Origin: a virus
Strand: one strand, 5' to 3'
Length of the DNA: 25,762 nucleotides
IMG/VR virus record: IMGVR_UViG_3300032018_000020
Span: 1 to 25,762 of that record
The notes under the pieces are model-generated. The model ran no database searches. It was given only the letters and a program-made list of their open reading frames with translations, and was not told the DNA's origin. Shown in pieces: positions 6,322 through 21,094 of the stretch; position 1 is the stretch's first letter, and the number at the start of each line of letters is the position of its first letter. The position numbers were made by a program, and so were the translations under genes.

Positions 6322-6632
6322 GGGTGCAAGTGGGTGCAAGCATATGGTGTACAAAACAACCAAGAATGGACATCGGTCGGAAAAAACAAAGATTCCTTTT
6401 TTTTGCTTTAGCTCTGGAAAGTTTCTGGGGCATTTTTTTAAAACTGCTGCACCCTTGCACCCTAACCTTATTTTTCCTTTTAATTATAATAAGTTAATAA
6501 GGGTGCAAACGTGGGTGCAAGCGGGGTGCAAAGGGTGCAAGTTGGGTGCAAACCTCGCCGGGTGTTTTCGGCTTTCACCACGAAATAATATCGTAAAATC
6601 AATCGATTGTCAAACAGGGTGCAAAGGTGCAC
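6322..6632 (+). repeat. GGGTGCAA iteron-like array, candidate replication origin
   Basis: Eight direct copies of GGGTGCAA(A/G) begin at 6322, 6332, 6501, 6513, 6524, 6533, 6544 and 6617, with a partial copy at 6626. Two inverted copies lie at 6446-6462. Within the central cluster the start-to-start spacing is 9-12 bp, close to one helical turn, as in iterons bound side by side by an initiator. An AT-rich stretch (6463-6500, including TTTTAATTATAATAAG) directly abuts the central cluster and could be the unwinding element. The array lies just downstream of the primase-helicase/methyltransferase operon. Origin function is inferred from this layout, by analogy with P4-type origins bound by the alpha primase-helicase. 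Confidence 0.6.
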
Positions 6633-6859
6633 TCCAAAATGTGCCTTGCCTCCAAGGAGATCAGGACGAATCAGACCGTGTTGGGATGGCTCCCGGCCAG
6701 TTAGCGGGAAAGAACTCACCTCGTATGACCTTATTAGAATTGGTTTGTAATAACCCTGAAAGACGCACAGCGAAAGGGATAGAACAACCCTGTTCTTCCT
6801 CTCTATTGGGGGGAGTGATTCATGTGGTCCGAAATAGACGGAAAGACGGAATTCCTTTA

Positions 6860-6952
6860 CCGCACATAATTATAAATTGTGCGGTTACTAATAAGGGAGT
6901 GTGCGGGATGATGCGGGATAGCGGTCTGGTGATCTTATGAATTGTGCGGTTA
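6860..6952. promoter_or_regulatory. TGTGCGG motif cluster, candidate operator
   Basis: TGTGCGG occurs at 6878, 6900 and 6943, and inverted (CCGCACA) at 6860. The first and last direct copies share the longer word AATTGTGCGGTTA. Starts are 22 and 43 bp apart, near two and four helical turns. The inverted copy and the first direct copy form an 18-bp-spaced dyad around an AT-rich centre. The cluster lies 170-260 bp upstream of the recombinase/Mor operon, so a repressor or activator site is the simplest reading. No promoter hexamers are confidently assigned. Confidence 0.35.
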
Positions 6953-7118
6953 GTTTTAGAATGAGGACGAAATGGGGGGCCATGATGCCGACCTGTACCC
7001 CACCCCCCCCCGAAAGATTCAGCCATTTCCCTTCCACCCCTGACCGATTGGTCTCTATCAATTGGGGTAGTTTTTCAGAAACGAGTTCAGACCTTAATCA
7101 AGGGGGGGCGCGGGGGGG

Positions 7119-8099
7119 ATGCTGACTGCTCTGCTCGACAAATATGCCACCCATCTGATCGTGCTGCGCGGTCTGTCTCTCCGCAGCGTGGCCGACTACC
7201 AGAAGCGGGTGTCGGAGTTCTTTGCCTGGCTTGCGGCCGATAGCAGGTCCACGGAGATCAAGACCATCAGCCAGGACGATGTTGAGGCCTGGCTCAAGCA
7301 CCTCTATTACGAGCAGCACAACGCCACCTTGACCCGCCACACCAAACTCGGGGCCGTGTCCGGCTTCTGGCGCTTCCTGCTTTACGAGCAGCATGTGGCC
7401 GCAGACATCACCGCGCTCATCCCTCGCCCCAGGGTAAAGCGCCGGATGATGCAGTATTTCACCAGAAACGAGGTGGTAGCTTTCTTCTCGGCCTGCCCGG
7501 TAAACACCGAGAAGGGAATCCGCGACACCTGCATCCTAATCATCCTCGCCTTTGCCGGACTGCGCGTCGGGGAGCTGTGCGGACTCCGGATGAGCGACAT
7601 CATGGACGACGGCGACTATGTCGACATCATGGTGCCGGAGGATATAGGCAAGCAGGGGAACTACCGCACGGTTGACCTGTGGAAGACCCCGACGGCATTT
7701 CTCCGGAGATGGATAGCCATTCGTTTCACCCAGGGCGCCCGGATCGACGACCCGCTCTTTATCAGTTATCGCCGCGGAAACACGGCGGTGGGTAATAAGT
7801 TATCCGGCAAGGATATAGACCGGCTCATCAAGACCCTGGGCGAGTCAGCCGGGATCCGCAAGGCTCGTATCCACTCGCACATGTTCCGGGCCACCCACGG
7901 CTCCGATCTCCTCTTTATCATCGGGTTCACCATTGCAGCCATTGCGGCCCGGCTGGGCCACAAGAACATAGCCACCACCGACAGCTATTTGCCTCGGCGC
8001 GGAAGGATCACGCAACGCTACCGGAGCTTGCGGGATTACTGGCTTCCCTGGGAAAAAATTTACACGGAGGGGGCGGCCCATGCCGAGAGCCGAGAATAG
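7119..8099 (+). CDS. Tyrosine recombinase (XerC/D-like phage integrase)
   Basis: A 326-residue recombinase distinct from IntI. An N-terminal core-binding SAM-like domain (residues 1-100, SLRSVADYQKRVSEFFAWL) precedes a catalytic domain with R149 (AGLRVGELCGLR), a probable catalytic Lys near 178, H254-x-x-R257 (HMFRATHG), H281 (LGHKN) and Tyr290 (TTDSYL). The second-helix motif reads HMFRATHGSDLL rather than the usual HxLRHTFAT, so it is a divergent branch. It lacks the IntI insertion. It probably integrates or excises the phage, or resolves multimers. A run of G residues sits before the ATG and no classical Shine-Dalgarno is distinguishable from it. The 3' end overlaps the Mor-like gene by 20 nt. 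Confidence 0.9.
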   Translation: MLTALLDKYATHLIVLRGLSLRSVADYQKRVSEFFAWLAADSRSTEIKTISQDDVEAWLKHLYYEQHNATLTRHTKLGAVSGFWRFLLYEQHVAADITALIPRPRVKRRMMQYFTRNEVVAFFSACPVNTEKGIRDTCILIILAFAGLRVGELCGLRMSDIMDDGDYVDIMVPEDIGKQGNYRTVDLWKTPTAFLRRWIAIRFTQGARIDDPLFISYRRGNTAVGNKLSGKDIDRLIKTLGESAGIRKARIHSHMFRATHGSDLLFIIGFTIAAIAARLGHKNIATTDSYLPRRGRITQRYRSLRDYWLPWEKIYTEGAAHAESRE

Positions 8100-8349
8100 G
8101 GAATTGCTCGATCAGTTGGTGTCCAGGGTTTGTAAAGATTTTGGGGTGGAGTCAGGCCGCGCCATCATGCGGACGATATTTGAGGAGCTCGGAGGTTTCC
8201 GCATAACCATCCCGACGCTTGAGGATCTACACCGGGAAGAACGCGATAGCCGTATCAAGCTCATTTTTAACGGGGGCAATATTTCAGAACTCGCAGAGCG
8301 GTTTGGTATTTCAAAGAGACATGTTCGGAGGATTGTCACTGATGGTTAA
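8080..8349 (+). CDS. Mor/C-family transcription activator
   Basis: This 89-residue DNA-binding protein resembles the Mu middle/late activators Mor and C. It has a helical dimerisation half, the beta-strand linker (GGFRITIPTLEDL) and a C-terminal helix-turn-helix (NISELAERFGISKRHVRRIV, about residues 68-87). In Mu, Mor turns on the middle promoter and C turns on late genes by binding a dyad and recruiting RNA polymerase. Only one such protein is seen here, so it may serve both roles. GGAGGGGG stands just before the ATG, inside the recombinase gene. The gene lies directly upstream of the late region, and the 43-bp repeats with an imperfect dyad are its best candidate targets. Confidence 0.85.
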   Translation: MPRAENRELLDQLVSRVCKDFGVESGRAIMRTIFEELGGFRITIPTLEDLHREERDSRIKLIFNGGNISELAERFGISKRHVRRIVTDG

Positions 8350-8503
8350 AGAGAAAAAATGTCCGTATCAGCCAGGGGAGATCAACCACGAGGTGTGCTC
8401 TTCAATGGCGGCCCACGGGAACAAGGCATGCAGGACGTGTCAGAAAAAACCAACCATCTCTGTAAAATCCGGGGGGCAGAAAAACACCCCCCTCTTCCTA
8501 TAA
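8342..8503 (+). CDS. Small Cys-rich, probably zinc-binding protein
   Basis: A 53-residue ORF overlaps the end of the Mor-like gene by 8 nt, with GGAGG at 8327-8331 as a good ribosome binding site. Cysteines at residues 7, 19, 30 and 33 (CPYQ, EVCSS, CRTC), with His16 and His25 between them, look like a small zinc ribbon. Small proteins of this type are common beside Mor-like genes in Mu-like prophages, but I cannot name a characterised homologue. It probably binds nucleic acid or a protein partner. Confidence 0.6.
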   Translation: MVKEKKCPYQPGEINHEVCSSMAAHGNKACRTCQKKPTISVKSGGQKNTPLFL

Positions 8504-8620: not shown

Positions 8621-8932
8621 ATGAAACCACCCCCAAGCAATAGAAATGTCCCGAAGTGGATGTGGGCAGATGCGTGCGAACAATACGAAGACTATCAGCG
8701 TCTGTACAAAATGCTTCAAGACATAGGCCTCAGCGATCTGGCCGCGGATGAATATATTGACGCTCACGCCGAGCTGTCACGCATGGTGGAGCTGCTTGAT
8801 CCGAAGGAAGAGGATTTCCGTTCCGACGATCACTCCAAGAATTTCGCCAAAGCCGCTGCCGCGCTTGCCGCCATGAAAAAAAATCTTGGGTATGATTCAA
8901 CCCAACCCACACCCCCAATAATCACAAAGTGA
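8621..8932 (+). CDS. Hypothetical small acidic protein
   Basis: A 103-residue protein with a good upstream GAGGT. It is predicted to be mostly helical and acidic (ELSRMVELLDPKEEDFRSDDHS), with an Ala-rich helix near the C-terminus (AKAAAALAAMKKNLG). There is no signal peptide or membrane segment and no recognisable motif. Its last codons overlap the first copy of the 43-bp repeat. Its position between the activator and the terminase resembles the small Mu-like genes ahead of the packaging genes; a role in the early-to-late switch or in lysis control is possible but unsupported. Confidence 0.65.
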   Translation: MKPPPSNRNVPKWMWADACEQYEDYQRLYKMLQDIGLSDLAADEYIDAHAELSRMVELLDPKEEDFRSDDHSKNFAKAAAALAAMKKNLGYDSTQPTPPIITK

Positions 8933-8967
8933 CACGGTCTGCCAGTCTGCGTCCCCTTTCTCTGCTA
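8925..8967 (+). promoter_or_regulatory. 43-bp repeat, copy 1: candidate late promoter/activator site
   Basis: This segment is 40/43 identical to 14561-14603. It starts 8 nt before the stop codon of the preceding gene and lies 23 bp upstream of the terminase small subunit start. Positions 8931-8953 form an imperfect dyad, GACnCnGnCTG-C-CAGnCnGnGTC, fitting a dimeric activator. The conserved block ends in TTTCTCTGCTA, whose last bases might serve as a poor -10. Binding by the Mor-like protein is an inference. Confidence 0.55.
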
Positions 8968-8990
8968 AGGCAAAGTAAGGGGACATGGAT

Positions 8991-9689
8991 ATGGCAGACG
9001 ACAACAATCAGAGCGGCAACGAAACCGACCCGGATAACGGCGTTGGTATTCCTCTCGCAATGCGGGTGCGGCGTGAATACACGCTGAGTCCGGCCGCGAT
9101 TGAGCAGCGCCGCCAGGCCGCCTTACAGCCAAAGCCAGGCATGCAGGGAGTGCGCAACGCCTGGAAGCATGGCCGCCACGCCTCTTCTTTTCTCACCCGT
9201 CTCAAGCCCTGCAAAACAACCTGCCCGCAATACCCGTGTGAACTGGTAGCCGACAACGTCACCGAGCCCGGCAAGGATTGCCTGGACAAAGCAGAGCTGC
9301 TCAGTATCATCCATGCAGTCCATGACGCCATCAAAGACCCGAAAGAAGGCACCGCCGCCTTTCAAGAGATCGCCGCAGTCAATATCGCCAACTCCATCCG
9401 CATCCTGGAAATGCTTCAGGAAGACATCATGCGCGACGGCACGGTGATCAAATCCACAAAGGAAACCAAGTTCGGACCCGAGATCGAATACAAGCTCCAC
9501 CCCTCCCTGCTTGCCCTGCCCAAGATGATCCAGGATCTCAACCTCACCCCCGACCAGTTCATGATTACGCCCAAGGCCAAGGCCAAAGTCGACGGAGAGC
9601 AGGAGGCCGCCAAAACCATCGGCGAGCTGCTCGGTGCCGCAGGCAAACAGTTGGCCCAGGCAAAGGCCGCCACCCAGAAAGAGGTTTAA
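8991..9689 (+). CDS. Probable terminase small subunit
   Basis: A 232-residue protein placed directly before the terminase large subunit. Small terminases recognise the packaging site and feed DNA to the large subunit. It has a charged N-terminus, then GVRNAWKHGRHASSF, a Cys cluster (CKTTCPQYPC, then DCLDK) that could bind metal, a helical middle part (AVNIANSIRILEMLQED), and an Ala/Lys-rich tail. AAGGGG lies 8 nt upstream of this ATG but only 2 nt from the in-frame ATG at 8985, so I prefer 8991. Assignment rests on position and on resemblance to Mu gp27-type small terminases; sequence evidence alone is moderate. Confidence 0.7.
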   Translation: MADDNNQSGNETDPDNGVGIPLAMRVRREYTLSPAAIEQRRQAALQPKPGMQGVRNAWKHGRHASSFLTRLKPCKTTCPQYPCELVADNVTEPGKDCLDKAELLSIIHAVHDAIKDPKEGTAAFQEIAAVNIANSIRILEMLQEDIMRDGTVIKSTKETKFGPEIEYKLHPSLLALPKMIQDLNLTPDQFMITPKAKAKVDGEQEAAKTIGELLGAAGKQLAQAKAATQKEV

Positions 9690-9692
9690 GCT

Positions 9693-11489
9693 GTGGAGCC
9701 GATCCGCCTTGACGACCTCGGCAAGGGTGTTGTGGTTCCGCACGACACCTTCGACGCTACCCTTGCCGCGTTGGGTTGGACCTGGCAGCAGATATCCCGC
9801 GGCTCCTTGCCGCCGCCCTTCACCTCGCTTGAAGACTTCCAGCTTGCCATCATCGCCGACGACCCCTTGCTCTGGTGCACCGCCTTTCTGCGCGAGCCGG
9901 AGGATTCGGACCACGTCCAGCCCTACAGCTTTTTTCCCTACCAGATAGACTCGCTGCGCTGGTCCGGCTCCACCGTCCACAAGTGTGGCGCCGAGGTGGG
10001 CAAGACCCGCGAGATCGTTGCCTGGTGTTTGCACAAGGCCTTCACCGTCCCCAACGGCTCCGGCCTGATCGGCGCGCCACAGCAGACCCATCTGGACGAG
10101 ATCATCGAGGCCATGACCGACCAGTTCAACTGGAATGAAGATCTGGCCCGCGACTTGCTGCGCCACAAGAAGCACCCCCACCACGCCTTTTATTTTCGCA
10201 ACGGCTTCAAGATAGACTTTCGCCCGGCCGGCCACGATGGCGAGGCATACCGCGGCGTGCATGTGCGGACCTTCGCCATCAAGGACGAGGCCGCCAAGTG
10301 CAAGAACCCGACGCAGTTTTCCGAGTTCTGGCGGGCCATGAAACCAACGGCGGTCGCCCGCCTGTATTCGGTACCGGACGGCGACCGCTCCTGTGAATTT
10401 TTCAAACTCGGCCAGCGGGCCATAGGCAAAGTCGAGGAGGAGAACAATGCAACCCTTGAAGGCGCTGCTAAACAACTTACATTCAGACTCTTCAAGTGGG
10501 CAAAAGCCCTTATGCCGCCTCCTTACTGGACAGACGAACGCCGCAAGTTCTACGTCGAGCAATACGGTGGAGAAGATTCTCCTGGGTACCAGCACAATGT
10601 CCTCGGAGAAGACGGCGATCCGGAACATACTGTCTTCCCCTGGCACCACCTGAAACACTGCATCAAGCAGATCGACGAATACCGCTGCCTGAAAATCCTG
10701 GTGGATTCATCGCACGACGAGGTGATCGTCACCGGCTATCGCGGCTCCCTTACCTTTTCCACGGAAGGCGAACCGCAAGCCCGGGCGATTTCCGCCATCG
10801 ACACCGTGTTCGTCCGCGCTCCGTTTTTCAAGGCCGACGAGGATGGCCAGTCGGAGTTCACCCGGCTCATCAAGTCGTTTTTCGTATCGGTGCCGGGTCT
10901 CAAGCGCGGCGGCGCCGACCTGGGCTTTTCCGGCGACCCCACCGAGATCATCATCAAGAATATCATCGGCAAGCAGGAACGCATGGTGGCCAGGCTGCAG
11001 CTCAAGCACGTCACCTACGATCAGCAATGCCAGGCAATCAGCGCCCTGGATGATCTCTACGGCCCCAGGGAGTCACTCACCTGGGGCACCGACTTCGGCA
11101 ACGCCGGGTCTGCCGTGGCCCATGATCTCCAGGGGCTGGCCATTTACGAAGAAAAAGAGTTCGAGCACCGGCTGCGCGGCTTTCAGTTTGAATCCACCAC
11201 CGACAATGTCAACGAGGAAGGCGACCCGGTGATAGACGCCAAAAGCGGCAAGCCGGCGCGGATCACCCTTAAGGAACTGGCCACCGACATCCTGGTCAAA
11301 AAGATGCAGCGCCAGGAGCTGGAGATACCGGCCGACCCGGACATCATCCTGTATTACACCAATCACACTGTGCGCATGGGCAGCAGACACCGGATTTTCA
11401 AGAAGGAAGACGACCATCTCCTCGATGCTGACCGTGCCCAGACCTTGGCCAATATCATGGCCGCAACCGTGGAGGATTTATTCGCATGA
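9693..11489 (+). CDS. Terminase large subunit (Mu gp28-like)
   Basis: The ATP-driven DNA packaging motor and nuclease, 598 residues. The ATPase domain has a Walker A variant CGAEVGKT at residues 98-105 and a Walker B region AIKDEAAK near 195-202. The C-terminal half has acidic RNase H-like nuclease candidates (GGADLGFSGDPTEI near 405, and WGTDFGNAG further on), and ends with the HLLDADRAQTLANIM region typical of Mu-like large terminases. It starts with GTG shortly after the small subunit stop and overlaps the portal start by 4 nt (ATGA), as expected for coupled packaging genes. Confidence 0.85.
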   Translation: MEPIRLDDLGKGVVVPHDTFDATLAALGWTWQQISRGSLPPPFTSLEDFQLAIIADDPLLWCTAFLREPEDSDHVQPYSFFPYQIDSLRWSGSTVHKCGAEVGKTREIVAWCLHKAFTVPNGSGLIGAPQQTHLDEIIEAMTDQFNWNEDLARDLLRHKKHPHHAFYFRNGFKIDFRPAGHDGEAYRGVHVRTFAIKDEAAKCKNPTQFSEFWRAMKPTAVARLYSVPDGDRSCEFFKLGQRAIGKVEEENNATLEGAAKQLTFRLFKWAKALMPPPYWTDERRKFYVEQYGGEDSPGYQHNVLGEDGDPEHTVFPWHHLKHCIKQIDEYRCLKILVDSSHDEVIVTGYRGSLTFSTEGEPQARAISAIDTVFVRAPFFKADEDGQSEFTRLIKSFFVSVPGLKRGGADLGFSGDPTEIIIKNIIGKQERMVARLQLKHVTYDQQCQAISALDDLYGPRESLTWGTDFGNAGSAVAHDLQGLAIYEEKEFEHRLRGFQFESTTDNVNEEGDPVIDAKSGKPARITLKELATDILVKKMQRQELEIPADPDIILYYTNHTVRMGSRHRIFKKEDDHLLDADRAQTLANIMAATVEDLFA

Positions 11490-13555
11490 AAATATATCCC
11501 GCCTCTTTTCTCGACCGGGCAAAAAACATCTTCGCCCGCACCAAGGCCCCATTGCCCAGCGGTATCCAGCTGCGACCAAATGACGGCCAGGGTCCGTTCA
11601 CCCCCTACTTCAAGCAGTTTATCCCCCGCAAGGTAGAGGCCTCGTTTTACGAGTTCCTGCGGGAGGCGATACCGATCATCGATGCCGCTATCGGCAGGCT
11701 GGTGTCTTTGGATGGCCATATCGTGGTCAAGGGCAACAACGAGGCCCTGGTCGACGAGATTCAGGAGTGGATGGACAACATTGTGGTCAACGACCTTGGC
11801 ACCGGCCTGCAGGCCTTCCATGCCAACGTCAGCAACGAAGCGTTTGAGCAGGGATTCGGCCTGGGCGAATTTATCACCGACAAGGCCCGGCGCGATATCG
11901 TCGGCCTCCGGGTGGCCGATTCCAAGTTCATCAAATTCAAGCGCTCCTCCACGGCCGGCGGCATCGAAATTTTGCAGAAGGCGGATGGCGACTTCGGCTA
12001 CCGCCCCCTGCACCGCGACAACCTGATGTATTTTTCCATCGGCAACGAAAACCAGAACCCATACGGCACCCCGATCTTTCGCTCCTGCGAGTTCGTCGCC
12101 CAGATCCTGGCCACCATGCACAACTCTTTGCTCAATGTCTGGGAGCGGTTCGGCGATCCGTCTTTCTCCGTCAACTATAAAACCTCGAAAAAAGACGGCG
12201 CCGACCTGGAAGCACGACGGCTGCAAATAGCCAATGAACTGGACACCGCCTTCCGCGCCAAGCGGCAAGGGAAGAGCGCGGACTTTGTCCGGGCTATGGA
12301 CAGCAACAGCAACATCGAGATCACGGTGCTCGGGGCCGACAATGCGGTGCTCGAGCTGGAGGTGCCCTCCCGCCATGTGCTGGAGCAGATCGTTTCCAAG
12401 TCCGGATTGCCGCCCTGGATGCTGGGGCTGCACTGGTCCACCACCGAGCGGCTCGCCAACTTCGAAACCGAGATGGTCCTGGCGGATGTGCAGATCCGCC
12501 AGGCGGCCAAGTTGCCTAGCTTCCGCCGACTGATATCCACCATGCTGATGCTGCGCGGCCGCGCCTGGAAGAAAGGCGACTGGTGGCTCGAGTGGCAGCA
12601 GGTCAATCTTCACGACGTTGTCGCCCAGGCCCAGGCCCGGTTCCTCAACGCCCAGGCCGACATGTACCATGTGCAAAATGCCGAGACCCTCGGCATTGCT
12701 CTGGACGTGCGGGATCTGTCCTTTGGCAAATCGCTCCCGGTATCGGGCGCAAAGGGCCATGCCGCTCTCCATGCCCAGATCAAGGCAGCAAAGGCCTGCG
12801 GCTGCAAGGAGAGCCAGCGCAGCGAACCGTGGCCTGAACTGGACAACCTCGAGGCCGACTTTGAGAAAAGGCTGGTAGATGATTGGGCGGGGCTGCTCTC
12901 CCGGGTCAAGACCATCCTGGCGCTGGATCAAGCAAAGAGCGCCAAGGGCGAGGATGAAAAGCCGGGCTTTGTGCTCTCCACCGAGCAACGCGCCATGGTC
13001 TTGGCCGCAGCAAAGGAATGGACCGCAGCCTATAACCCGGCCACGAAGGATTCGCCGCTCCATTGGTTTTATGGCCAATCGTTCAGCGCCGGATTGTTCC
13101 AGGCATCCCGCATGGTCGGCGACGATGTCACCCTGCTCAGTATCCTCAAGAACAACGAGACCTTCGACTCGCTGGTCACCGACGGGTTTGCCCTGGTCAA
13201 GGACAACGCCACCAAGGCGATCACCAACCGGATCCTGCCGGAAATGGAAGCGCACGTCATCGCGGGCAGCAATCCAGTGGAGGTTGCCCGGAGGCTGGAG
13301 CGGCTGTTCGGGGATGCGAATTCGGACTGGCAACGCCTGGCAAGATCCGAGATGGCGATGGCGGCGGAAACGGCAAAGAAAGCGGAATGGACAGAGCGCG
13401 GCCTGAAACGGCTCGAATTTGCCCCGGCTCCGGACGCATGCAGTATCTGCCGCGCCCTGGCCGGAGAGTACGAGATCAGCGCCTGCCCCTTGCCGGTAAA
13501 GAATACTCACCCGCGCTGCCGGTGCTCGACCAGACCGGCGGCGAGTGAGGTGTAG
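11486..13555 (+). CDS. Portal protein fused to gpF-like head morphogenesis domain
   Basis: A 689-residue protein. Residues 1 to about 430 look like a portal of the Mu gp29/DUF935 type (YEFLREAIPIIDAAIGRL, then LPPWMLGLHWSTTERLANFE), the dodecameric ring through which DNA enters the capsid. The rest resembles the Mu gp30/SPP1 gp7 minor head protein: a helical region, then RSEMAMAAETAKKAEW and a terminal metal-binding motif (ACSICRALAGEYE... THPRCRC). In Mu these are two genes; here a single frame spans both with no internal stop. The start overlaps the terminase stop by 4 nt. The 3' end runs into a structured untranslated segment. Confidence 0.85.
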   Translation: MKIYPASFLDRAKNIFARTKAPLPSGIQLRPNDGQGPFTPYFKQFIPRKVEASFYEFLREAIPIIDAAIGRLVSLDGHIVVKGNNEALVDEIQEWMDNIVVNDLGTGLQAFHANVSNEAFEQGFGLGEFITDKARRDIVGLRVADSKFIKFKRSSTAGGIEILQKADGDFGYRPLHRDNLMYFSIGNENQNPYGTPIFRSCEFVAQILATMHNSLLNVWERFGDPSFSVNYKTSKKDGADLEARRLQIANELDTAFRAKRQGKSADFVRAMDSNSNIEITVLGADNAVLELEVPSRHVLEQIVSKSGLPPWMLGLHWSTTERLANFETEMVLADVQIRQAAKLPSFRRLISTMLMLRGRAWKKGDWWLEWQQVNLHDVVAQAQARFLNAQADMYHVQNAETLGIALDVRDLSFGKSLPVSGAKGHAALHAQIKAAKACGCKESQRSEPWPELDNLEADFEKRLVDDWAGLLSRVKTILALDQAKSAKGEDEKPGFVLSTEQRAMVLAAAKEWTAAYNPATKDSPLHWFYGQSFSAGLFQASRMVGDDVTLLSILKNNETFDSLVTDGFALVKDNATKAITNRILPEMEAHVIAGSNPVEVARRLERLFGDANSDWQRLARSEMAMAAETAKKAEWTERGLKRLEFAPAPDACSICRALAGEYEISACPLPVKNTHPRCRCSTRPAASEV

Positions 13556-13560
13556 GAGGA

Positions 13561-13681
13561 CGGGACTGGGGGGAGTTGGACCTCCCCCCGAACCATCCGC
13601 CCTTGCGCAAACAAGGGATGGAGGCCCGCAGGGTACACCTGCTTAAGTCCCGATATGCGTGAGACACGCCCGGGCAACTTA
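13561..13681 (+). ncRNA. Candidate structured RNA / 5' leader of the dam-like gene
   Basis: Stem A pairs CGGGACT (13561-13567) with AGTCCCG (13646-13652) and encloses three hairpins. These are GGGGGGAG/CTCCCCCC (13568-13589), CCAT plus CCCTTG with CAAGGG plus ATGG (13593-13621), and GCAGG/CCTGC (13628-13642). A fifth hairpin GCGTG-AGA-CACGC (13657-13669) follows. The 3' strand of stem A can instead extend hairpin five through TAAGT/ACTTA and CCCG/CGGG. The two states exclude each other, as in attenuators and riboswitches. The cloverleaf shape is not a tRNA because the arm and loop sizes are wrong. It lies 32 nt before the methylase start. Confidence 0.45.
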
Positions 13682-13712
13682 GCAGCCCCCCTGTCAAAAG
13701 GAAAGAGGAATC

Positions 13713-14477
13713 ATGTCACACGTAATCCCCTATTTCGGAGGCAAAAACCGCTTAACCAAAACCATTATCGAGAAAATTACACCGCACACTTGCTATGTCG
13801 AGGTGTTCGCCGGAAGCGCCGGGGTGCTTTTTGCCAAGGATCCATCCAAGGCGGAGGTGATCAACGATCTCGACAAGGAGTTGGTCACGTTCTATCGCGT
13901 GGTGAAGCATCACCCGGAAGAGTTTTACCGTCAGTTCAAATATTGCCTGGTTGCCAGGGATGAATTTGAGCGGCTGAAAAAGGTAGACCCGGAAACCCTC
14001 ACCGATATCCAGCGGGCCGTCCGTTATTTCTACCTGCAGAAAAATGCCTTTGGCGGGCATGTCGTCGGGCAATCATTCGGGACGGCGACCACCGCTGCGG
14101 CCCGCTTGAACCTCTTCAACCTGGAGCAAATCATCACCACCGTCTGGCAGCGTTTGGCAGGGGTCACCATCGAGCGTCTTGATTTCCGCAAACTGCTCCC
14201 CCGTTACGACCGACCGCACACCTTCTTTTTTATGGATCCGCCCTATTGGGATGTTCCTGGTTACCGGCACGATTTTGTCGAGCAGGACTTCCTTGACCTG
14301 GCCGAGATTTTGTCACGGCTGGCCGGGCGGTTTCTGATGACCATCAACGACACCAAGGAAGTGCGGGAGATTTTCGGCGGGTTCCGGATCGAAGAAGTGC
14401 AGCTCAAATATTCGATGTCGAGCCAGGCCAGCTCCAGGGCAAAGCAGCGTACCGAGCTATTGATTTCCAACGATTGA
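13713..14477 (+). CDS. DNA adenine methylase, Dam/D12 class
   Basis: An N6-adenine methyltransferase of 254 residues, near the usual D12 length. The N-terminal PYFGGKNRL binds the cofactor region with motif I YVEVFAGSAGVLF, followed by VINDLD. The catalytic motif IV is DPPYW near residue 175, followed by IND in a motif-V-like segment (FLMTINDTKE). AAAGAGG precedes the ATG. No restriction partner is present. The gene interrupts the usual Mu-like order between head morphogenesis and protease, has a long structured leader, and is followed by a strong terminator, so it behaves as an inserted moron unit. Likely roles are escape from host restriction or control of phage promoters. Confidence 0.9.
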   Translation: MSHVIPYFGGKNRLTKTIIEKITPHTCYVEVFAGSAGVLFAKDPSKAEVINDLDKELVTFYRVVKHHPEEFYRQFKYCLVARDEFERLKKVDPETLTDIQRAVRYFYLQKNAFGGHVVGQSFGTATTAAARLNLFNLEQIITTVWQRLAGVTIERLDFRKLLPRYDRPHTFFFMDPPYWDVPGYRHDFVEQDFLDLAEILSRLAGRFLMTINDTKEVREIFGGFRIEEVQLKYSMSSQASSRAKQRTELLISND

Positions 14478-14511
14478 GGCCACCGGCCCACCCCACCATA
14501 TCCCCAGCACG

Positions 14512-14547
14512 AAAAGCCCTGCCATCTTGGCCGGGCTTTTCTTTTTT
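14512..14547 (+). terminator. Rho-independent terminator after the adenine methylase gene
   Basis: AAAAGCCC (14512-14519) pairs with GGGCTTTT (14533-14540). An inner GCC/GGC extends the stem across one mismatch, around a 5-nt loop. TTTTCTTTTTT follows the helix. It lies about 35 nt after the methylase stop and separates the packaging operon from the second late operon. Confidence 0.85.
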
Positions 14548-14560
14548 CCGCCCTCAGCAA

Positions 14561-14603
14561 CAAAGTGACACGGTCTGCCAGTCTACGTCCCGTTTGTCTG
14601 CTA
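14561..14603 (+). promoter_or_regulatory. 43-bp repeat, copy 2: candidate late promoter/activator site
   Basis: This second copy differs from 8925-8967 at three positions. It begins 13 bp after the terminator and 65 bp before the next gene, exactly where a new promoter is needed for the protease-to-tail genes. The dyad (14567-14589) is kept except for one arm base. Being non-coding here, its conservation cannot be explained by protein sequence. Confidence 0.6.
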
Positions 14604-14667
14604 CGAAAAAGAAGACTCTTAAAAAATTGATCTCTTTTTTTGCACAGACACATAGGAGGGCAACGCC

Positions 14668-15096
14668 ATGGCGGACGAGACAGGCAAGATCACCAACGGC
14701 ACCAAAGACTTCGCTGGTTCTGGAGTCGAAGGAAAAAAGGAGGGTGATCCGGACGCTGCCTCCGAGCGCCGTGCCAAAGTTCGGCAGAACATGATCGTGT
14801 CCGGCATCGGCGAGCTTGACCCGGCCACGGAATACACCAAGTCAGGCAAGCCTGACGTTAAGGCTCTGGTCGATCTGCTCGGCTTTGATATCGACGCCAA
14901 AGAGCGCGATGCCGCCTTTGCGGTGTTCGCCGCCAACATGGCAGTGATTGTCTCCTCTGCGGCCACCAGCCAGGAACTTGCAGATATCTTGGCGTCCACT
15001 CCAAGTGATTCCCGTTCCCCAGCAGTAAAACAAACCACCATCCTTACCGGCGAGCATGTACTCGCCATCCAGCGCGAGCAGGGGAAAGAAGTCTGA
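14668..15096 (+). CDS. Hypothetical protein, first gene of the second late operon
   Basis: A 142-residue protein with a strong GGAGGG before the ATG. The first 45 residues are charged and probably disordered (MADETGKITNGTKDF...). The remainder is helical with an Ala-rich segment (FAVFAANMAVIVSSAATSQELAD). The C-terminus ILTGEHVLAIQREQGKEV overlaps the protease start codon by one base. No family recognised. Its position just before the head protease suggests a head assembly or small virion role; this is inference from location only. Confidence 0.65.
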   Translation: MADETGKITNGTKDFAGSGVEGKKEGDPDAASERRAKVRQNMIVSGIGELDPATEYTKSGKPDVKALVDLLGFDIDAKERDAAFAVFAANMAVIVSSAATSQELADILASTPSDSRSPAVKQTTILTGEHVLAIQREQGKEV

Positions 15097-16214
15097 TGTC
15101 CGGCTCGCTTGTAAAAGCATACCTCCCAGGCGAGATTCGCCGTAAGTCCTTTGCTTCCGGGATCAAGGGCGCAGGGGCTGGGGTTGAAGTAACCACCGAA
15201 GTGCTCGGCAAGATCAATCACTATGCCCTGACTCCGGTTACAGCGGAAGAGGTGTATGTCCGCCGGAAAATCCTCGCCCATAACGGCGTGGACCGCGACC
15301 GCGAACGATTCACCGAAACCCTGCTCGATGACTTTGCCGCCACCCTTCCCGGTAAATCCACACTCTATGCCCATGATCGCGGCAAGTTTTTGCCGCTCGG
15401 CCTCTATTTCGCCGCCGCCACCGAGGAGATCAGCCAGGAACAATTCAAGCAGATGACCGGCGAGGATCCGCGCCTTCCTGCCGGGGTGGCCAACGTCAAG
15501 GTTCTGTGGGCCTGGTACTACGTCATCAAAACGCCCGAGGTCGAATCGGTAATCAAGAATATCGAGGGCGGCACCTACCGCCACTGGTCCATCGGCTTCT
15601 CCGCGAGAGAGCTGGTTTCGGTCAAGGGGCCATACGATCAAACATTGTATTGGGAATACCTGGGGCCGGGTGAGGCCACCGAGGGTTCCCTGGTCTGGCT
15701 TGGAGCGCAGCAAGGTGCCACCAGTCAAAAAAACGCCAAGGATGGTCTTGGCACGGACGAAGTTGAACACCAACTGAGAGGAAAAGATATGAAAGTGCTT
15801 AAGGCGCTGCTCGGGGCAGTATTGGGGAAATCCTTCGGCGACACCGTCACCGAGGAGAATCTTGTCGATGAGGTCAAGTCTGCTCTGGCCGCCAAGGACG
15901 CACAGGTATCCACCCTGCAGACAGAGGCGGCAGGCCTCAAGGACATGGCAGCCATCGGCAAAAAGCACATGGATGAGCTGGCCGCTGACTACGCCAGGAT
16001 GAAGGCGCTCCTGGGCGAATGCAAAGAGGATGAGACCGAGGTTACCAAGATGAAGGGTTATGCCGCCACCCTTCCCGCCGACTTCCTGGTCGGAGAGGTC
16101 AAGGCCTTGCAGAAACGAGTAAGCGAAAAATTTCCGTCACAGGGCCAGCTTGAGGGCGACCTGCGGCGCGACAAGTCCGGCAGCGAAGGCAACCCGCTGA
16201 TTCCGCAGAACTGA
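15096..16214 (+). CDS. Prohead protease with C-terminal scaffold region (Mu gpI-like)
   Basis: A 372-residue protein. The N-terminal ~220 residues resemble a phage head maturation protease, with conserved elements AHNGVDRDRERF, LYAHDRGKFLPLG (candidate catalytic His) and YRHWSIGFSAREL (candidate catalytic Ser). The C-terminal ~140 residues are a charged, coiled-coil scaffold. Mu gpI/gpZ and lambda C/Nu3 use the same arrangement, with the scaffold also made separately from an internal start. A heptamer A-AAA-AAC at 15728-15734 lies in frame at the domain junction. A -1 slip there would stop the protein after about ten residues, giving a protease without scaffold. Confidence 0.8.
   Translation: MSGSLVKAYLPGEIRRKSFASGIKGAGAGVEVTTEVLGKINHYALTPVTAEEVYVRRKILAHNGVDRDRERFTETLLDDFAATLPGKSTLYAHDRGKFLPLGLYFAAATEEISQEQFKQMTGEDPRLPAGVANVKVLWAWYYVIKTPEVESVIKNIEGGTYRHWSIGFSARELVSVKGPYDQTLYWEYLGPGEATEGSLVWLGAQQGATSQKNAKDGLGTDEVEHQLRGKDMKVLKALLGAVLGKSFGDTVTEENLVDEVKSALAAKDAQVSTLQTEAAGLKDMAAIGKKHMDELAADYARMKALLGECKEDETEVTKMKGYAATLPADFLVGEVKALQKRVSEKFPSQGQLEGDLRRDKSGSEGNPLIPQN
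15789..16214 (+). CDS. Nested scaffold protein from an internal start
   Basis: An in-frame ATG inside the protease gene is preceded by GAGAGGA at 15776-15782, an unusually good ribosome binding site for the middle of a gene. The 141-residue product begins MKVLKALLGAVLGKSFGD. It contains a predicted coiled coil (AKDAQVSTLQTEAAGLKDM through DYARMKALLGE) and a basic/polar tail, as expected for an assembly scaffold that holds capsid subunits and is later degraded by the protease. Separate synthesis of scaffold in excess over the fused protease is the known logic in lambda and Mu. Confidence 0.65.
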   Translation: MKVLKALLGAVLGKSFGDTVTEENLVDEVKSALAAKDAQVSTLQTEAAGLKDMAAIGKKHMDELAADYARMKALLGECKEDETEVTKMKGYAATLPADFLVGEVKALQKRVSEKFPSQGQLEGDLRRDKSGSEGNPLIPQN

Positions 16215-16252
16215 TCGCCCATCACGGCGCAACCCATTAAGGGAGAAGAACC

Positions 16253-16612
16253 ATGGCACACGAAAAAGCAACCCCGCGTGATGGGGTGAACGGTCTCAAG
16301 ACCATGAAACTCGCACACACTGCCGCAGTGCTGGCAGGCGAGATCATCGAGGCGACCGGCAATATCCTGGTGGCGGTATCGGCCGCAGAGGCGAACGCCG
16401 CCAACATCTACATCTACCGGGGCCGGGTAGGGTTTCCGAAGGCCACCGGGGGATCTACCGCCATCACCGCCAATACAAAAGTGTATTGGGACGTTTCGGC
16501 AGGCGTGGCCACCACCAGTTCCGACACCGGGACCAACAAGCTGATCGGCACCACGATTGAGGCGGCCGGAGACAGCGATGCCGAAGTCCTGGTAATGCTG
16601 GCCGAAAACTAG
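16253..16612 (+). CDS. Head decoration-like protein (DUF2190 type)
   Basis: A 119-residue, beta-rich protein of the DUF2190 type often found between protease and capsid genes. The pattern VAVSAAEANAA, then YRGRVGFPKATGG, AITANTKVYWDVSAG and LIGTTIEAAGDSDAEVLVML resembles the small beta-barrel that stabilises capsids from the outside. AGGGAG precedes the ATG. Decoration function is inferred from family and position. Confidence 0.7.
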   Translation: MAHEKATPRDGVNGLKTMKLAHTAAVLAGEIIEATGNILVAVSAAEANAANIYIYRGRVGFPKATGGSTAITANTKVYWDVSAGVATTSSDTGTNKLIGTTIEAAGDSDAEVLVMLAEN

Positions 16613-16651
16613 GCGATTATCCCAAGCAACCACGCACATAAGGATATCATC

Positions 16652-17635
16652 ATGAAATTGTACGGTAAAAAAATCATCGACTGGAATGGCCTGTCGCAGA
16701 TCCCTGCGGCTCTGCACAAAGAAAAAATCCTGGCCGCCATCTCCGCAGGCTTCAAAGCGGTCTCTGACATCCCCCTCCTGGGTGTTTCCGCAGACAAGGT
16801 GCTCGGCTCCAAGATCATTGGCGCTGACCCCTCCCTGGCCTCTGCTGCCCCCCCTATTATCATGACTGCCACCGATACGGTGGATGCCCCTGATCGTGGC
16901 TACGAGGCACTTTTCGCCGAGGTAGACATGCGGAACTCCAGCAGCAAGACCTTCGAGATGCTGGACATCACCGACGGCGTTACCTTTTATCAGCAGCTCC
17001 CCGGCGAAGAGGCAAAGCTCTCGAGGTTGCCTACCGGTGCCAAGGCGAATGTGGGCATGCTGCGCTTTACCGGCGGCTTCCCCATCCTCGACGACTGGTT
17101 GCGCTTCAACGAGTTTTATAAGATCGACGAGTTGATCGCCGACACCTTCAATCGTTGGTACGACAAAAAGGCCGATCTTTTCTACGGCCTGCTCGGGCTG
17201 CTCTCCAGCGCCATCAACGAGGCCTTCGCCACGGATGACATCACTACCATCAACAACGCCTGCGCCAAGATCGTCACCGACATGCAAGCCGCCGGATACG
17301 GTGTCTCCGCCACCAGCGGATTCTACATCACCTGCCATCCCAATCTGTTGATGCGGGTCTACAAGGCGCTTGCAGCCTCGTTCATGAATCCCAACACCAA
17401 CAACAACCAGATTGTTTGGCCGATCAAGGGGGTCATCCCGACCGCCAAGGTTGCGGCCACCAGCTACTATGTTTCCCTGGCCGGCCTGAAGAACAAGCGC
17501 GGCGAGTGGGAAGACCTCAACACCCGGGAGCCTCAGCGCAGCGAGTTGAAGCTCGGCGCCGACCATGTATGGACCGGCGCTTACAACGGCGCTATCGGCG
17601 AGGCCAAACAGCATCGCCGTTGTTCGCTCTCTTAA
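16652..17635 (+). CDS. Major capsid protein (Mu gpT-like, HK97 fold expected)
   Basis: A 327-residue protein of capsid size, placed after protease, scaffold and decoration genes. It has an N-terminal helical region, a central GMLRFTGGFPILDDWLRFNEFYKIDELI segment, a helix-rich middle typical of Mu gpT-like heads, and a basic C-terminus (GAYNGAIGEAKQHRRCSLS). AAGGA precedes the ATG. It is followed by a GC-rich hairpin before the next gene, which would lower downstream expression relative to this abundantly needed protein. Confidence 0.8.
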   Translation: MKLYGKKIIDWNGLSQIPAALHKEKILAAISAGFKAVSDIPLLGVSADKVLGSKIIGADPSLASAAPPIIMTATDTVDAPDRGYEALFAEVDMRNSSSKTFEMLDITDGVTFYQQLPGEEAKLSRLPTGAKANVGMLRFTGGFPILDDWLRFNEFYKIDELIADTFNRWYDKKADLFYGLLGLLSSAINEAFATDDITTINNACAKIVTDMQAAGYGVSATSGFYITCHPNLLMRVYKALAASFMNPNTNNNQIVWPIKGVIPTAKVAATSYYVSLAGLKNKRGEWEDLNTREPQRSELKLGADHVWTGAYNGAIGEAKQHRRCSLS

Positions 17636-17657
17636 TCCTCCTTTCTCCTGATGGGGT

Positions 17658-17677
17658 GGGCGGGCTTCGGCCCGCCC
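17658..17677 (+). promoter_or_regulatory. UUCG-capped hairpin downstream of the capsid gene
   Basis: GGGCGGGC and GCCCGCCC form a perfect 8-bp stem capped by the very stable TTCG tetraloop. There is no T-tract, so it is probably an mRNA stabiliser for the capsid transcript or a transcription pause rather than a full terminator. It lies in the 60-nt gap between capsid and the next head gene. The Mu-gpT-DE RNA motif, described downstream of gpT genes, comes to mind, but a single hairpin does not establish it. Confidence 0.6.
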
Positions 17678-17695
17678 TACTCCTGACAAGGCGCC

Positions 17696-18127
17696 ATGCC
17701 AAAGACAGCAGCGGCAGACATCAAGGCTCTCGGCTTCACCTTCGGCCAGTTCAACCTGGCCACTGCTGCTGAGTTCGACGCCTGGCTGGATGCAGCGATA
17801 GCCGAACAGGCCTTGCTGCTTGAAGGAAGGATCGGCTCCACGATCTACAGCACGACAGCAACCCCCGCCTCGACGTATGTGAAGCGGGCAGAAAAATGCC
17901 TGGTGGCGGCAGAGCTTTTCCAGCGCCGCGCCATTGCCATAGCAGGCAACGCCCAACCGAACGGAGAAGAGCCAGTCACGGCCTCGCTCGATGTGCAGCA
18001 AAAAAAATACCGTACCGAGGCCCAGGAGCTGATTGACCGCCTGGTTGCCGGGTCGGTGTCGGATGATACAGGGTTTGCTTCCGGGGTCAGCGTGACCTCG
18101 CATTTCCCCGAGGATGTCGATGCTTAA
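17696..18127 (+). CDS. Probable head-tail completion protein (Mu gp36 position)
   Basis: A 143-residue, mainly helical protein (FDAWLDAAIAEQALLLEGRIG, then VKRAEKCLVAAELFQRRAIAIAG), as in the small adaptor proteins that sit under the portal. Family assignment rests on gene order (capsid, this gene, then a gpG/gp37-like protein, sheath). It overlaps the next gene by a few codons. The start ATG has only AAGG upstream. Confidence 0.6.
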   Translation: MPKTAAADIKALGFTFGQFNLATAAEFDAWLDAAIAEQALLLEGRIGSTIYSTTATPASTYVKRAEKCLVAAELFQRRAIAIAGNAQPNGEEPVTASLDVQQKKYRTEAQELIDRLVAGSVSDDTGFASGVSVTSHFPEDVDA

Positions 18128-18578
18128 AATCCGGGTAAAAATTGAGAACGGCCAGGCTGGCGGCGCCCACATCCGGCACATTATCGACCGCGCCCCGCTG
18201 GCGGCGAAAAGAGGCCTGAGACGGATTATCCGCGGGCTCCATCGGGAAGCGGATGACTTTCTCGCCGGTGCGGCCGGGAAACCGGGTAGCTATCCGGTCC
18301 CGTCGATTACCGGGCATCTTCGCCGGAACCTCGACTGGCTTGAGCCTGGGGAAAAGAAAACCGTCAACGGCGTTTCGTTTGACACCGACGACCTTGAGGC
18401 CATGCTTTTCGACTCGGCGATCTATGCCTCGGTGATCCATGACGGCACCCGCTCTTCCGAGAGCCACGGTCCTCGGCCTTTCACCGATGATGCCCTGGAC
18501 GCCTTCAATACCGGTGGGCGGATCGAAGGGATTATGGCCGCTGAATTCAAGAAAGAACTCGAAAGGACAGGGATATGA
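18120..18578 (+). CDS. Probable virion morphogenesis / tail completion protein
   Basis: A 152-residue basic protein with the pattern of phage gp10/gpG-type completion proteins: an N-terminal beta strand (MLKIRVKIENG), helix (RAPLAAKRGLRRIIRGLHREADDFLA), and the ending YASVIHDGTRSSESHGPRPFTDDALD. The Y-A-x-x-x-H-(E/D)-G and R-P-F motif pair is characteristic of this class. I chose the ATG six bases after GAGG; an in-frame ATG at 18114 would add two residues. It lies in the gene order expected for joining head to tail. Confidence 0.65.
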   Translation: MLKIRVKIENGQAGGAHIRHIIDRAPLAAKRGLRRIIRGLHREADDFLAGAAGKPGSYPVPSITGHLRRNLDWLEPGEKKTVNGVSFDTDDLEAMLFDSAIYASVIHDGTRSSESHGPRPFTDDALDAFNTGGRIEGIMAAEFKKELERTGI

Positions 18579-18841
18579 CCGTAACCCCGGAAATGTTTGT
18601 CACCCTGTTTGTTCTATCAGCGGTCTTTTACGAGCTGGTCAAGCTCATGGTCGGGCATCTTTTCGGCCGCTTCCTCTCCCCTGGGTTCGTGAAAACTAAG
18701 GAATGCGAACAGTGCTCTGCCAAAAGCAGCACCATCGATGCGGAGATGAAGAGGGATATTAGGGTTATCAAAAAGGCGCTGATCAGCATGGCCACCAAAG
18801 GGGCCATGTCCGAAGATGATATCCAGGGGTTGGTGAGCTGA
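18575..18841 (+). CDS. Small membrane-anchored protein with a CxxC motif
   Basis: An 88-residue protein with one hydrophobic segment near the N-terminus (MFVTLFVLSAVFYELVKLMV), then a charged region with C-x-x-C (KECEQCSAK), and a helical C-terminus (MKRDIRVIKKALISMATKG). The start overlaps the preceding stop (ATGA). A holin or other lysis role is possible from size and topology. Mu-like phages, however, keep small unknown genes here, and no endolysin is nearby. Function unknown. Confidence 0.65.
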   Translation: MTVTPEMFVTLFVLSAVFYELVKLMVGHLFGRFLSPGFVKTKECEQCSAKSSTIDAEMKRDIRVIKKALISMATKGAMSEDDIQGLVS

Positions 18842-19408
18842 ATGGCACCCGTTTCCTTTATCGCCGTGCTCAATGCGCTTGCTTCCCAGATAAACGGGGA
18901 TGCGAACGTGCAGGCGTTCTGCCAGGCCAAGTGGGCAAAGAATCTGGTGGCCAAGGTCAGTTTTCGCAATAGGACCGAGGTGCACATGGACTCCCTGCCG
19001 ATCCTACTGATCACCAGGCCGAAGGTCGGCAAGCGCCACGATGCTTCCGCCGGGCAGGAGGGGCTGCACAGCGTTCGTCTGTATTTCGGATTCTACCAGC
19101 CAGACCAGGACAAAGTGGTCGCCGAGCAGATCGGCCTCGAGGAGCTGATCGAGGACGCCATCAACCGCGACACTTCGCTCGGAGACACCGCCGATGAGGT
19201 TACCATTCTGGATTCCGCCAACGACGAGGGCAAGAAGCACCCGTCCTGTTTCACGGTTATGGCCCTGGATGTACTTTTCCAGCGGCTGCCGCTGAATGAA
19301 GCTGACGGCTCCACCATCGATGACTTCCTCCGCATGCATGCCGAGTACGATCTGGCGGCTCTGGACGGACAGACAGATGCCGTCGATGACATAATCCTTC
19401 CCCCGTGA
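18842..19408 (+). CDS. Probable tail terminator protein (Mu gp37 position)
   Basis: A 188-residue alpha/beta protein starting immediately after the previous stop codon. It has SFIAVLNALASQINGD, LPILLITRPKVGKRHDAS and a strand-rich middle (GLHSVRLYFGFYQPDQD), then an acidic C-terminus. In this position Mu-like phages carry the protein that caps the tail tube and sheath before head joining. Assignment depends mainly on synteny with DUF2635 and sheath just downstream. Confidence 0.6.
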   Translation: MAPVSFIAVLNALASQINGDANVQAFCQAKWAKNLVAKVSFRNRTEVHMDSLPILLITRPKVGKRHDASAGQEGLHSVRLYFGFYQPDQDKVVAEQIGLEELIEDAINRDTSLGDTADEVTILDSANDEGKKHPSCFTVMALDVLFQRLPLNEADGSTIDDFLRMHAEYDLAALDGQTDAVDDIILPP

Positions 19409-19415
19409 GGAAACC

Positions 19416-19595
19416 ATGAAAGACACCATTTTTGTAAAACCGAGACAAGGCTTGGTTGTAAAAGACCCTGCCACAGGCGAGCCCCTGCCGGAAACCGGCG
19501 CCCCAGTGCCGTATACCACGTACTGGCGCCGCAGACTGCAAGACGAGGACGTGCTCCCCGCCAAGCCAACCAAACAAGAAAAGGGAGGTAAGTGA
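19416..19595 (+). CDS. DUF2635 small tail protein (Mu gp38-like)
   Basis: A 59-residue ORF beginning MKDTIFVKPRQGLVVKDP and containing GEPLPETGAPVPYTTYWRRR. This is the hallmark of DUF2635 proteins that precede the sheath gene in Mu-like phages (VRPxxGLxVRDPxxxxxLPxxG, then YWxRRLxxGDV). It starts 7 nt after the previous stop and ends inside the sheath start (TGATG), so translation is coupled. Its exact role is unknown; the placement between tail terminator and sheath is conserved. Confidence 0.85.
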   Translation: MKDTIFVKPRQGLVVKDPATGEPLPETGAPVPYTTYWRRRLQDEDVLPAKPTKQEKGGK

Positions 19596-21067
19596 TGCCT
19601 GGTATTTCATACAACGCTATTCCGATTGATATCCGCACCCCTGGTCATTATATCGAGTTCGACAACACCAGGGCCATGCAGGGGCTGCCGACTATGCCGC
19701 ACAAGATTCTGGTCATTGGCCAGCGCTTGCCCGGCGGCATCATTGCGGCGGCGACCCCGGTGCGTGTCCTTTCCGGCTCGCAGGCAGAGGAGTTTTTCGG
19801 TCGCGGTTCCATGCTGGCCGAGATGCTCAAGGCGCTCAAAGAGGCGAACAACTACACCGAATGCTGGGCCGCTGCTCTCGATGACGAGGTTGCCGGGGTT
19901 CTGGCTGCCGGGTCGCTTACCATCGGCGGCACCCAGACCGAGGCTGGCACCCTGAACCTGTACATCGCTGGCAAACGGGTTCGCTGCGGAGTTGCGGTAG
20001 CCGATACTGCGGCGGCCATTGCCACCGCCCTGGCTGCGGCAATCAATACACAGACCGACTTGCCAGTCACCGCCGCAGTGAACGGGACAGTGCCGCAAAA
20101 AGTTGACCTGACTGCCCGCCATAAAGGCGAATCCGGCAACGATATCGACCTGCGTCTCAACTACGTGTTCGGCGAGAAGCTCCCGAAAGGGCTGACGGCG
20201 ACCATCGTGGCCATGACCGGCGGCACCGCCAACCCTGATATTGCCACGGTGCTGACCGCCATCGGCGCCGAACAGTACCACACCATCATCATGCCTTATA
20301 CCGATGCCGCCAACCTCGCCGCATTAGAATCTGAGCTTGACGACCGCTGGGGTCCGATGGTGATGAAGGAAGGGCACGCCTTTGCCGGAGCGGCAGGAAC
20401 CCACGCCGCCATCTCCACCCTCGGCTCTTCGCGCAATAATCCGCAGACCTCTATCATGGGCCTCCAGAAAAGCCCGACCGCCCCGTGGATTCTCGCTGCG
20501 GTGCTCGGAGCCGTTGATGCCTTTGAACCAGACCCGGCCCGGCCACGGCAGACCCTGGTGCTGAAAGGCATCCTTGCCCCGGCTGAAAAGGATCGTAATA
20601 CCAGGGAGGAAAGAAATCTCCACCTGCACGATGGCATCTCAACCTTCATCGTGGACCAGGGCGGCAACGTCCTGATCGAGCGGCTGATCACCACGTACCA
20701 AACCAACCCGTTCGGAGTTGAGGATATCAGTTATCTCGATATCACCACCATGCGCACCCTGGCCTACCTGCGGTACTCGGTGCGGGCCCGGATCGCCATA
20801 AAATTCCCTCGTCACAAGCTGGCCAATGACGGCACCAACTTTTCCCCCGGCCAAGCCATTGTCACCCCTAAGATCATCCGTGCCGAGCTGCTCGCCCTGG
20901 CGAGGCAATGGGAAGAGGTAGGGCTGATCGAGAACCTCGACCAGTTCAAGGACGATCTTCTGGTAGAGCGTGACGGCTCCGATCCCAACCGGGTCAACGC
21001 CTTGATCCCGCCGGATATCGTCAACCAGTTCCGCGTGTTCGCTGCCTCGGTTCAGTTCCGCCTGTAA
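19595..21067 (+). CDS. Contractile tail sheath protein (Mu gpL-like)
   Basis: A 490-residue sheath protein that polymerises around the tail tube and contracts on infection. The N-terminus (PGISYNAIPIDIRTPGHYIEFDN) and the C-terminal region (FGVEDISYLDITTMRTLAYLRY, then NPGQ-like FSPGQAIVTPKIIR) are typical of Mu gpL. The middle (TLNLYIAGKRVRCGV) is the variable surface domain. GGGAGG lies six bases before this ATG, which is better placed than for the upstream in-frame GTG at 19592. Confidence 0.95.
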   Translation: MPGISYNAIPIDIRTPGHYIEFDNTRAMQGLPTMPHKILVIGQRLPGGIIAAATPVRVLSGSQAEEFFGRGSMLAEMLKALKEANNYTECWAAALDDEVAGVLAAGSLTIGGTQTEAGTLNLYIAGKRVRCGVAVADTAAAIATALAAAINTQTDLPVTAAVNGTVPQKVDLTARHKGESGNDIDLRLNYVFGEKLPKGLTATIVAMTGGTANPDIATVLTAIGAEQYHTIIMPYTDAANLAALESELDDRWGPMVMKEGHAFAGAAGTHAAISTLGSSRNNPQTSIMGLQKSPTAPWILAAVLGAVDAFEPDPARPRQTLVLKGILAPAEKDRNTREERNLHLHDGISTFIVDQGGNVLIERLITTYQTNPFGVEDISYLDITTMRTLAYLRYSVRARIAIKFPRHKLANDGTNFSPGQAIVTPKIIRAELLALARQWEEVGLIENLDQFKDDLLVERDGSDPNRVNALIPPDIVNQFRVFAASVQFRL

Positions 21068-21094
21068 CAGATAAAGGTAAAAGGAGAAACCCTC

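Follow-up and report, generated by a model that had tools for sequence, protein, structure and literature searches.

Why does a phage genome carry two near-identical copies of a 43-bp sequence, each ahead of a block of late genes? The window analysed here is a 25.8-kb virus contig that ends at 25762, and the copies lie at 8925–8967 and 14561–14603. The first-pass annotation had reported this repeat from inspection, and the match is confirmed: 40 of 43 bases are identical (41 of 44 when 8924/14560 is included). With an ungapped self-match score of 35 the pair is the top direct repeat of the window; the runner-up scores 17, and 20 first-order Markov simulations of the window gave best scores of 13–17. 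A third copy of the 20-base core is absent from the window at up to 3 mismatches, where 0 are expected. The copies are also placed as had been described, one before terminase and one between a terminator and the protease-to-tail genes. Copy 1, which overlaps the stop codon of orf103 (the gene before it), sits directly 5′ of terS; copy 2 sits 3′ of a strong terminator hairpin and 5′ of orf142 and the protease, capsid and tail genes. A 23-bp imperfect dyad, likewise recognised earlier, is found inside each copy. It reads GACACGGTCTG-C-CAGTCTGCGTC at 8931–8953 (centre C8942) and GACACGGTCTG-C-CAGTCTACGTC at 14567–14589 (centre 14578), one inner pair of the second having been lost through a G-to-A change. 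Each copy further includes an extended −10, TGCTA (8963–8967 and 14599–14603), which the first-pass annotation had not named. We refer to the two sites as P1 and P2. In viral contigs the exact 17-base pattern was matched only by L003, a near-identical phage from another metagenome, its P2 copy included; the repeat sequence thus appears private to the phage. The loose whole-genome pattern CTGCC..YTGNTA was unusable, being too common in bacterial genomes.

Portal and TerL searches yielded about 100 related loci, of which those located in host assemblies belong mainly to Desulfobulbaceae, Desulfobacterales, Geobacter-like, Nitrospirae and Thermodesulfovibrionales bins. Among the papers searched, none deals with these phages or with the 9l0x and 9l0y structures. 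When the DNA upstream of terS was compared, unguided, with the portal–protease interval, a near-identical pair emerged in about 30 phages, at these same two positions but usually with a different sequence. Half-sites and core vary between phages: the variants include GTGACAC..CTGCCAG, GTGTCCT..CTGCCAG, ATGCAAT..CTGCCAG, GTTTCAT..CTGCCTG and TTTACCT..TTGGCCCAA. P1 and P2 dyads within a phage share 86% identity, and dyads of different phages 53%. The DNA flanking the dyad block is at background identity (29–33%) on both the upstream and the transcribed side, and it therefore appears that only the functional block is kept in step within a phage.

Most of 15 whole or long relative contigs carry exactly two sites. 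The first-pass annotation had looked to lysis genes for further copies; this expectation holds in some relatives, such as L113, where an extra site lies about 78 bases 5′ of a GH108 endolysin gene, but fails in most complete relatives, which have their two sites only. L113 carries another site after a Gp49-like/HTH_3 pair resembling a toxin–antitoxin insertion, both features falling in the region 6534–8441. An extra site lies just 3′ of mor in L068 (G015), and in L006 the terminator-plus-site is duplicated after the capsid gene. A third site, spaced like the others, precedes a gene in L046 (G009) that encodes DAM-like and GNAT-like domains (PF22555, PF22559). We note that in L134 (7743–9239), also G009, the third late-type promoter before the DAM-like/GNAT-like gene recalls C control of Mu mom. 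In several relatives at a greater distance no site could be recognised. The terL gene is split at residue ~243–248 by a 225-bp insert in L037 (7717–9759) and L030 (750–2792); the insert of L037 is rich in short GTTCAAGG/TTGAAC repeats and may be an intron, an intein or a mobile repeat. About 5 kb of other DNA interrupts the portal gene of L027 (5436–10617). L036 carries two 112-base repeats (13415–13526 and 13984–14095) whose differences include several A/G changes; they may represent tandem gene copies or a diversity-generating region.

The layout of the sites was read from an alignment of 52 sites from 26 non-redundant phages, centred on the dyad (the centre in L110 was picked partly by spacing). 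Positions −18 to −14 from the dyad centre are A-rich, positions 1–3, 7 and 9–11 of the dyad are conserved on each side, and a T-rich spacer follows. TGnTA is found at centre +21 to +25 in 47 of the 52; any other shift within 12 bases is seen 0 or 1 times. With the T after TGn counted as −12, the dyad centre falls at −36. The 52 aligned promoters have no −35 consensus. A −10, an absent −35 and a dyad with an A/T-rich stretch upstream are the features of a promoter of the Mu Pm type. Position 10 differs from phage to phage, yet the sites of one phage tend to share its base (0.88), and in 71% of sites the two halves are mirror-complementary there; a symmetric protein would be expected to give this pattern. 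A sigma-54 promoter was considered and rejected, its −24/−12 spacing being a misfit on reading.

In the window all elements lie on the + strand. P1 consists of a proximal UP-element-like stretch, ACAAA (8924–8928), where A/T is kept across the aligned promoters, the predicted operator (8931–8953), supported by its covariation with Mor residues 80, 84, 41 and 43, and the extended −10, TG-C-TAAGGC (8963–8971). The first gene it would serve is terS (8985–9689; ATG at 8985, with homology favouring 8991), followed by terL (9693–11489), portal (11486–13555) and dam (13713–14477). An intrinsic terminator (14511–14547), with a hairpin at 14511–14541 and then a T-run (−21 kcal/mol, z −5.1), closes the unit. 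P2 repeats the arrangement, with ACAAA at 14560–14564, the predicted operator at 14567–14589, identified by the repeat and the pair comparison and also present in L003, and the extended −10, TG-C-TACGAA, at 14599–14607. Its unit (14668–25002) comprises orf142, protease, decoration, major capsid, tail sheath, tube, tape measure and later genes. Transcription in the window is predicted to start at about 8978 (P1) and 14614 (P2). A generic sigma-70 scan called no consensus promoter at P1 or P2 in the window, as expected given that the −35 is absent; the terminator rule of the scan missed the hairpin at 14511–14541, which has an internal mismatch.

The assignment of the start site is supported by the position of the terS ATG, which falls exactly at the predicted +1 in six relatives (L046, L047, L061, L065, L076 and L084). 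In L014 the terS ATG is at +2, and another four ATGs located at +2 start different frames. This suggests that the late mRNAs may be leaderless where ATG and predicted transcription start coincide. By reading, a gene ATG is also located at the predicted start at P2 of L107 and L108. Many relatives have a terminator-like hairpin (AGCCCTC..GGAGGGCTTTTTT) that begins at the predicted P1 start, among them L015 (7266–7316), L050, L051, L052, L068, L072, L073, L107 and L027; the window has none. The Shine–Dalgarno sequence of terS sits inside the 3′ arm of this leader hairpin, and its pairing has a modest consensus in an alignment of relatives. In some of the relatives with the hairpin, a short peptide that is conserved (M-A/R-W-K-S-I-H-P..) starts from an ATG at +2.

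The activator of the Mor/C type that had been proposed just upstream is indeed encoded there. The mor-like gene (8080–8349, + strand) overlaps the 3′ end of a tyrosine recombinase gene, and its 89-residue product matches Pfam Mor (PF08765) with an E value of 1.2e-12 and 48.3 bits, above the cut-off of 24.9. The PHROG assignment is late transcriptional activator, and hmmsearch matches were obtained to 1rr7 (E 1.6e-9) and to Mu C, 9l0x. An AF2 model (pLDDT 83) has helix elements that fit the Mor/C fold, with a helical dimerisation part, a strand segment and a C-terminal HTH. The best PDB fold matches (1rr7, 9l0y and 9l0x) have a probability of 1.00, yet E values of only ~2e-3 and TM scores of 0.5–0.6; Mu Mor and C are the only strong class in the fold search. 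Both 9l0x and 9l0y apparently contain four activator chains. The predicted recognition helix (79–88) carries R80 and R84, one turn apart. The strand segment carries R41 and T43, at positions that align with Q68 and Y70 of Mu Mor. A Mor-like protein is encoded in all complete relatives examined except G013, usually upstream of terS. In L065 (G013), otherwise a typical phage with the site pair, Mor was undetected on the contig by profile or tblastn. We note that G013 (L137–L139) has the same promoter pair and that primase and recombinase homologues are also undetected on the contig. The window itself contains two different tyrosine recombinase genes (735–1703 and 7119–8099), and it is the second that directly overlaps mor.

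Divergence of Mor tracks divergence of the sites (Mantel r = 0.53, p = 0.0002, n = 22; partial 0.51 given TerL). In a set of 36, consisting of the pairs plus sites added by profile scan, r was 0.51 (partial 0.485), and after collapsing Mor proteins more than 55% identical r was 0.34 (p 0.016). Once Mor is taken into account, no correlation with site distance is left for TerL, portal, protease, terS or recombinase; this holds for terS although it physically adjoins the site, and for the recombinase the partial r is −0.01. Primase divergence keeps its correlation given Mor (partial r 0.56, p 0.012, n = 14), thus the Mantel analysis alone does not single out Mor.

Individual residues and bases were compared by scanning every Mor column, with no preselection, against half-site positions 1–13. 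Covariation was strongest between residue 84 and position 9 and between residue 80 and position 11; residues 41 and 43 came next, both with positions 1–3. Among 36 phages, all 22 with Arg80 have G at −11, and 13 of the 14 with another residue do not (p 6e-9); the sole exception, L073, has Lys80. Arg84 is accompanied by C at −9 in 31/31 and Asn, His or Lys84 by A in 5/5 (p 3e-6). Residues 41 and 43 covary with the CTG-C-CAG core: with Thr, Ser or Met at residue 43 a CTG core is present in 22/27, and with Arg, Tyr, Trp or an unclassified residue a CTG core in all sites is found in 0/9. Independent contrasting pairs were read on trees of TerL or of Mor residues 1–36. Those for residue 80 were concordant in 10/11 and 8/9 and those for residue 84 in 4/4, with none opposite; the association of residue 84 rests on these 4 contrasts. 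A TGCA-type site was predicted for L037 from its Asn84 before the site was known, and was found as expected.

These data bear on one alternative, in which the sites are operators of a repressor or other DNA-binding protein linked to the replication module and Mor covaries by linkage. The behaviour of primase and the one contig with no detectable Mor would suit such a protein. We nevertheless regard it as very improbable, because the covariation maps to the recognition helix and the dimer-axis strand of Mor structures, with several independent changes, and because the correlations of the five other proteins vanish given Mor. A Q-type late antitermination system, with the dyad as a promoter-embedded element for a Q-like protein loading on paused polymerase, is very unlikely. 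The element does lie within the promoter, beside the extended −10, and the leader hairpin found in many relatives comes just after P1. That hairpin is absent after both P1 and P2 in the window and after P2 in relatives, so a promoter closely followed by a terminator occurs at P1 of some relatives only. The protein, moreover, is of the Mor/C family by profile and fold, and Mu Mor and C are initiation activators (PMC4390567, PMC4461284).

The first-pass annotation had also raised antitermination of the nut/put kind, in which the repeat, lying after a promoter, would be transcribed and its RNA would modify RNA polymerase. Two copies ahead of long late operons, each with an inverted repeat, are what such sites might look like. 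However, neither copy has a more stable fold than its shuffles (z −0.24 and +0.13), the dyad is centred on a single base, the covariation partner is an HTH protein, and Rfam searches of the window and of two relatives gave no match. The repeat stops at its own −10; conservation across the relatives stops there too, and the predicted transcribed part is at background identity with no conserved RNA structure downstream of the start. We therefore take the sites to be promoter DNA and consider an RNA site exceedingly unlikely. It is hardly credible that the dyads are recombination or integration core sites for the tyrosine recombinase encoded at 7119–8099, whose gene adjoins mor, since, despite their direct orientation, the recombinase adds nothing to site divergence given Mor, recombining would delete terminase and portal, and the invariant −10 would be left unexplained.

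The repeats are, then, very probably two copies of a Mor-activated late promoter. The two-site Mor/C-like late regulon first suggested for this locus is strongly supported by the comparative data, namely the site pairs, the fixed spacing and the residue–base covariation. Architecture, spacing and coevolution with Mor are read from sequence; mirror symmetry of the dyad and covariation are observed, and binding by a dimer is predicted. The mor gene is at the end of the replication/recombination cluster and is probably co-expressed with it, which would set the timing. The 89-residue protein would dimerise and read the dyads at both promoters, with R80 and R84 of the recognition helices reading the outer GTG(A)C half-sites and R41 and T43 of the β-strand reading the CTG-C-CAG core. 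Through the alpha C-terminal domain and/or sigma, the protein would bring in host sigma-70 RNA polymerase and so make up for the missing −35. P1 would transcribe terS, terL, portal and dam up to the terminator at 14511–14547, and from P2 transcription would begin anew across the protease, capsid and tail genes. Because a single activator has to fit both operators, the two would be expected to change together as it changes.

The Ogr/Delta proteins of bacteriophage P2 are zinc-finger activators that act near −55 at late promoters with a dyad and no −35. The present system resembles theirs in combining a single small phage activator with several late promoters that have a dyad but lack a −35; here, however, an HTH protein of the Mor type would act at −36. 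The Mu Pm dyad is 16 bp (two 5-bp arms and a 6-bp spacer) centred at −43.5, with a proximal UP subsite at −57 to −52; with Mor, the alpha C-terminal domain makes contacts at the upstream A/T stretch and polymerase is recruited in place of a −35 contact (PMC4390567). Common to Mu Pm/Mor (1rr7, 9l0y) and to our sites are a Mor-family protein, a dyad, an A/T-rich UP-like element upstream, a −10 recognised by host sigma-70 and the lack of a −35. The sites here differ in their dyad, which is 23 bp with an extra conserved core and is centred at about −36, and in the nearly constant presence of an extended −10. The activator differs in length (89 residues against 129 in Mu) and appears to serve the late structural genes directly. 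The system resembles the Mor/C class in its predicted way of working and belongs to it by protein family, and its geometry departs from the Mu Pm definition in one respect.

Mu C controls lys and mom, and the Mu late promoters are those of lys, I, P and mom (PMC4461284). As in the Mu C regulon (9l0x), more than one late promoter would depend here on a single activator, of the same family as C, by a mechanism that is predicted. Some relatives add sites before a lysis gene (L113) or a DNA-modification gene (L046/G009); the parallel is close, because Mu puts lys and mom under C (PMC4461284). Mu, in contrast, employs a Mor-then-C cascade and four late promoters, whereas these phages have one Mor-like gene and usually two promoters. 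Unlike the Mu late promoters, the sites are near-identical within one phage.

Tentatively, and with a little less than even confidence, we suggest that these phages represent a distinct Mor/C subclass. It would have a two-part DNA code (recognition helix and dimer β-strand), a non-Mu geometry and repeated turnover of specificity with all late operators in step, giving each phage a private late switch that co-resident prophages cannot trigger. The natural record of an activator and its operators evolving together is unusually clear, with dozens of specificity variants and few candidate residues per base, and it predicts exactly which site each Mor variant should recognise. It bears on how Mor/C proteins read DNA, the covariation implicating both recognition helix and dimer strand, and on how far an activator can shift relative to the −10. 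The positions of late-transcript starts are predicted for uncultured phages of Desulfobacterota and relatives, and their activators and promoters make up a compact set of potentially orthogonal pairs.
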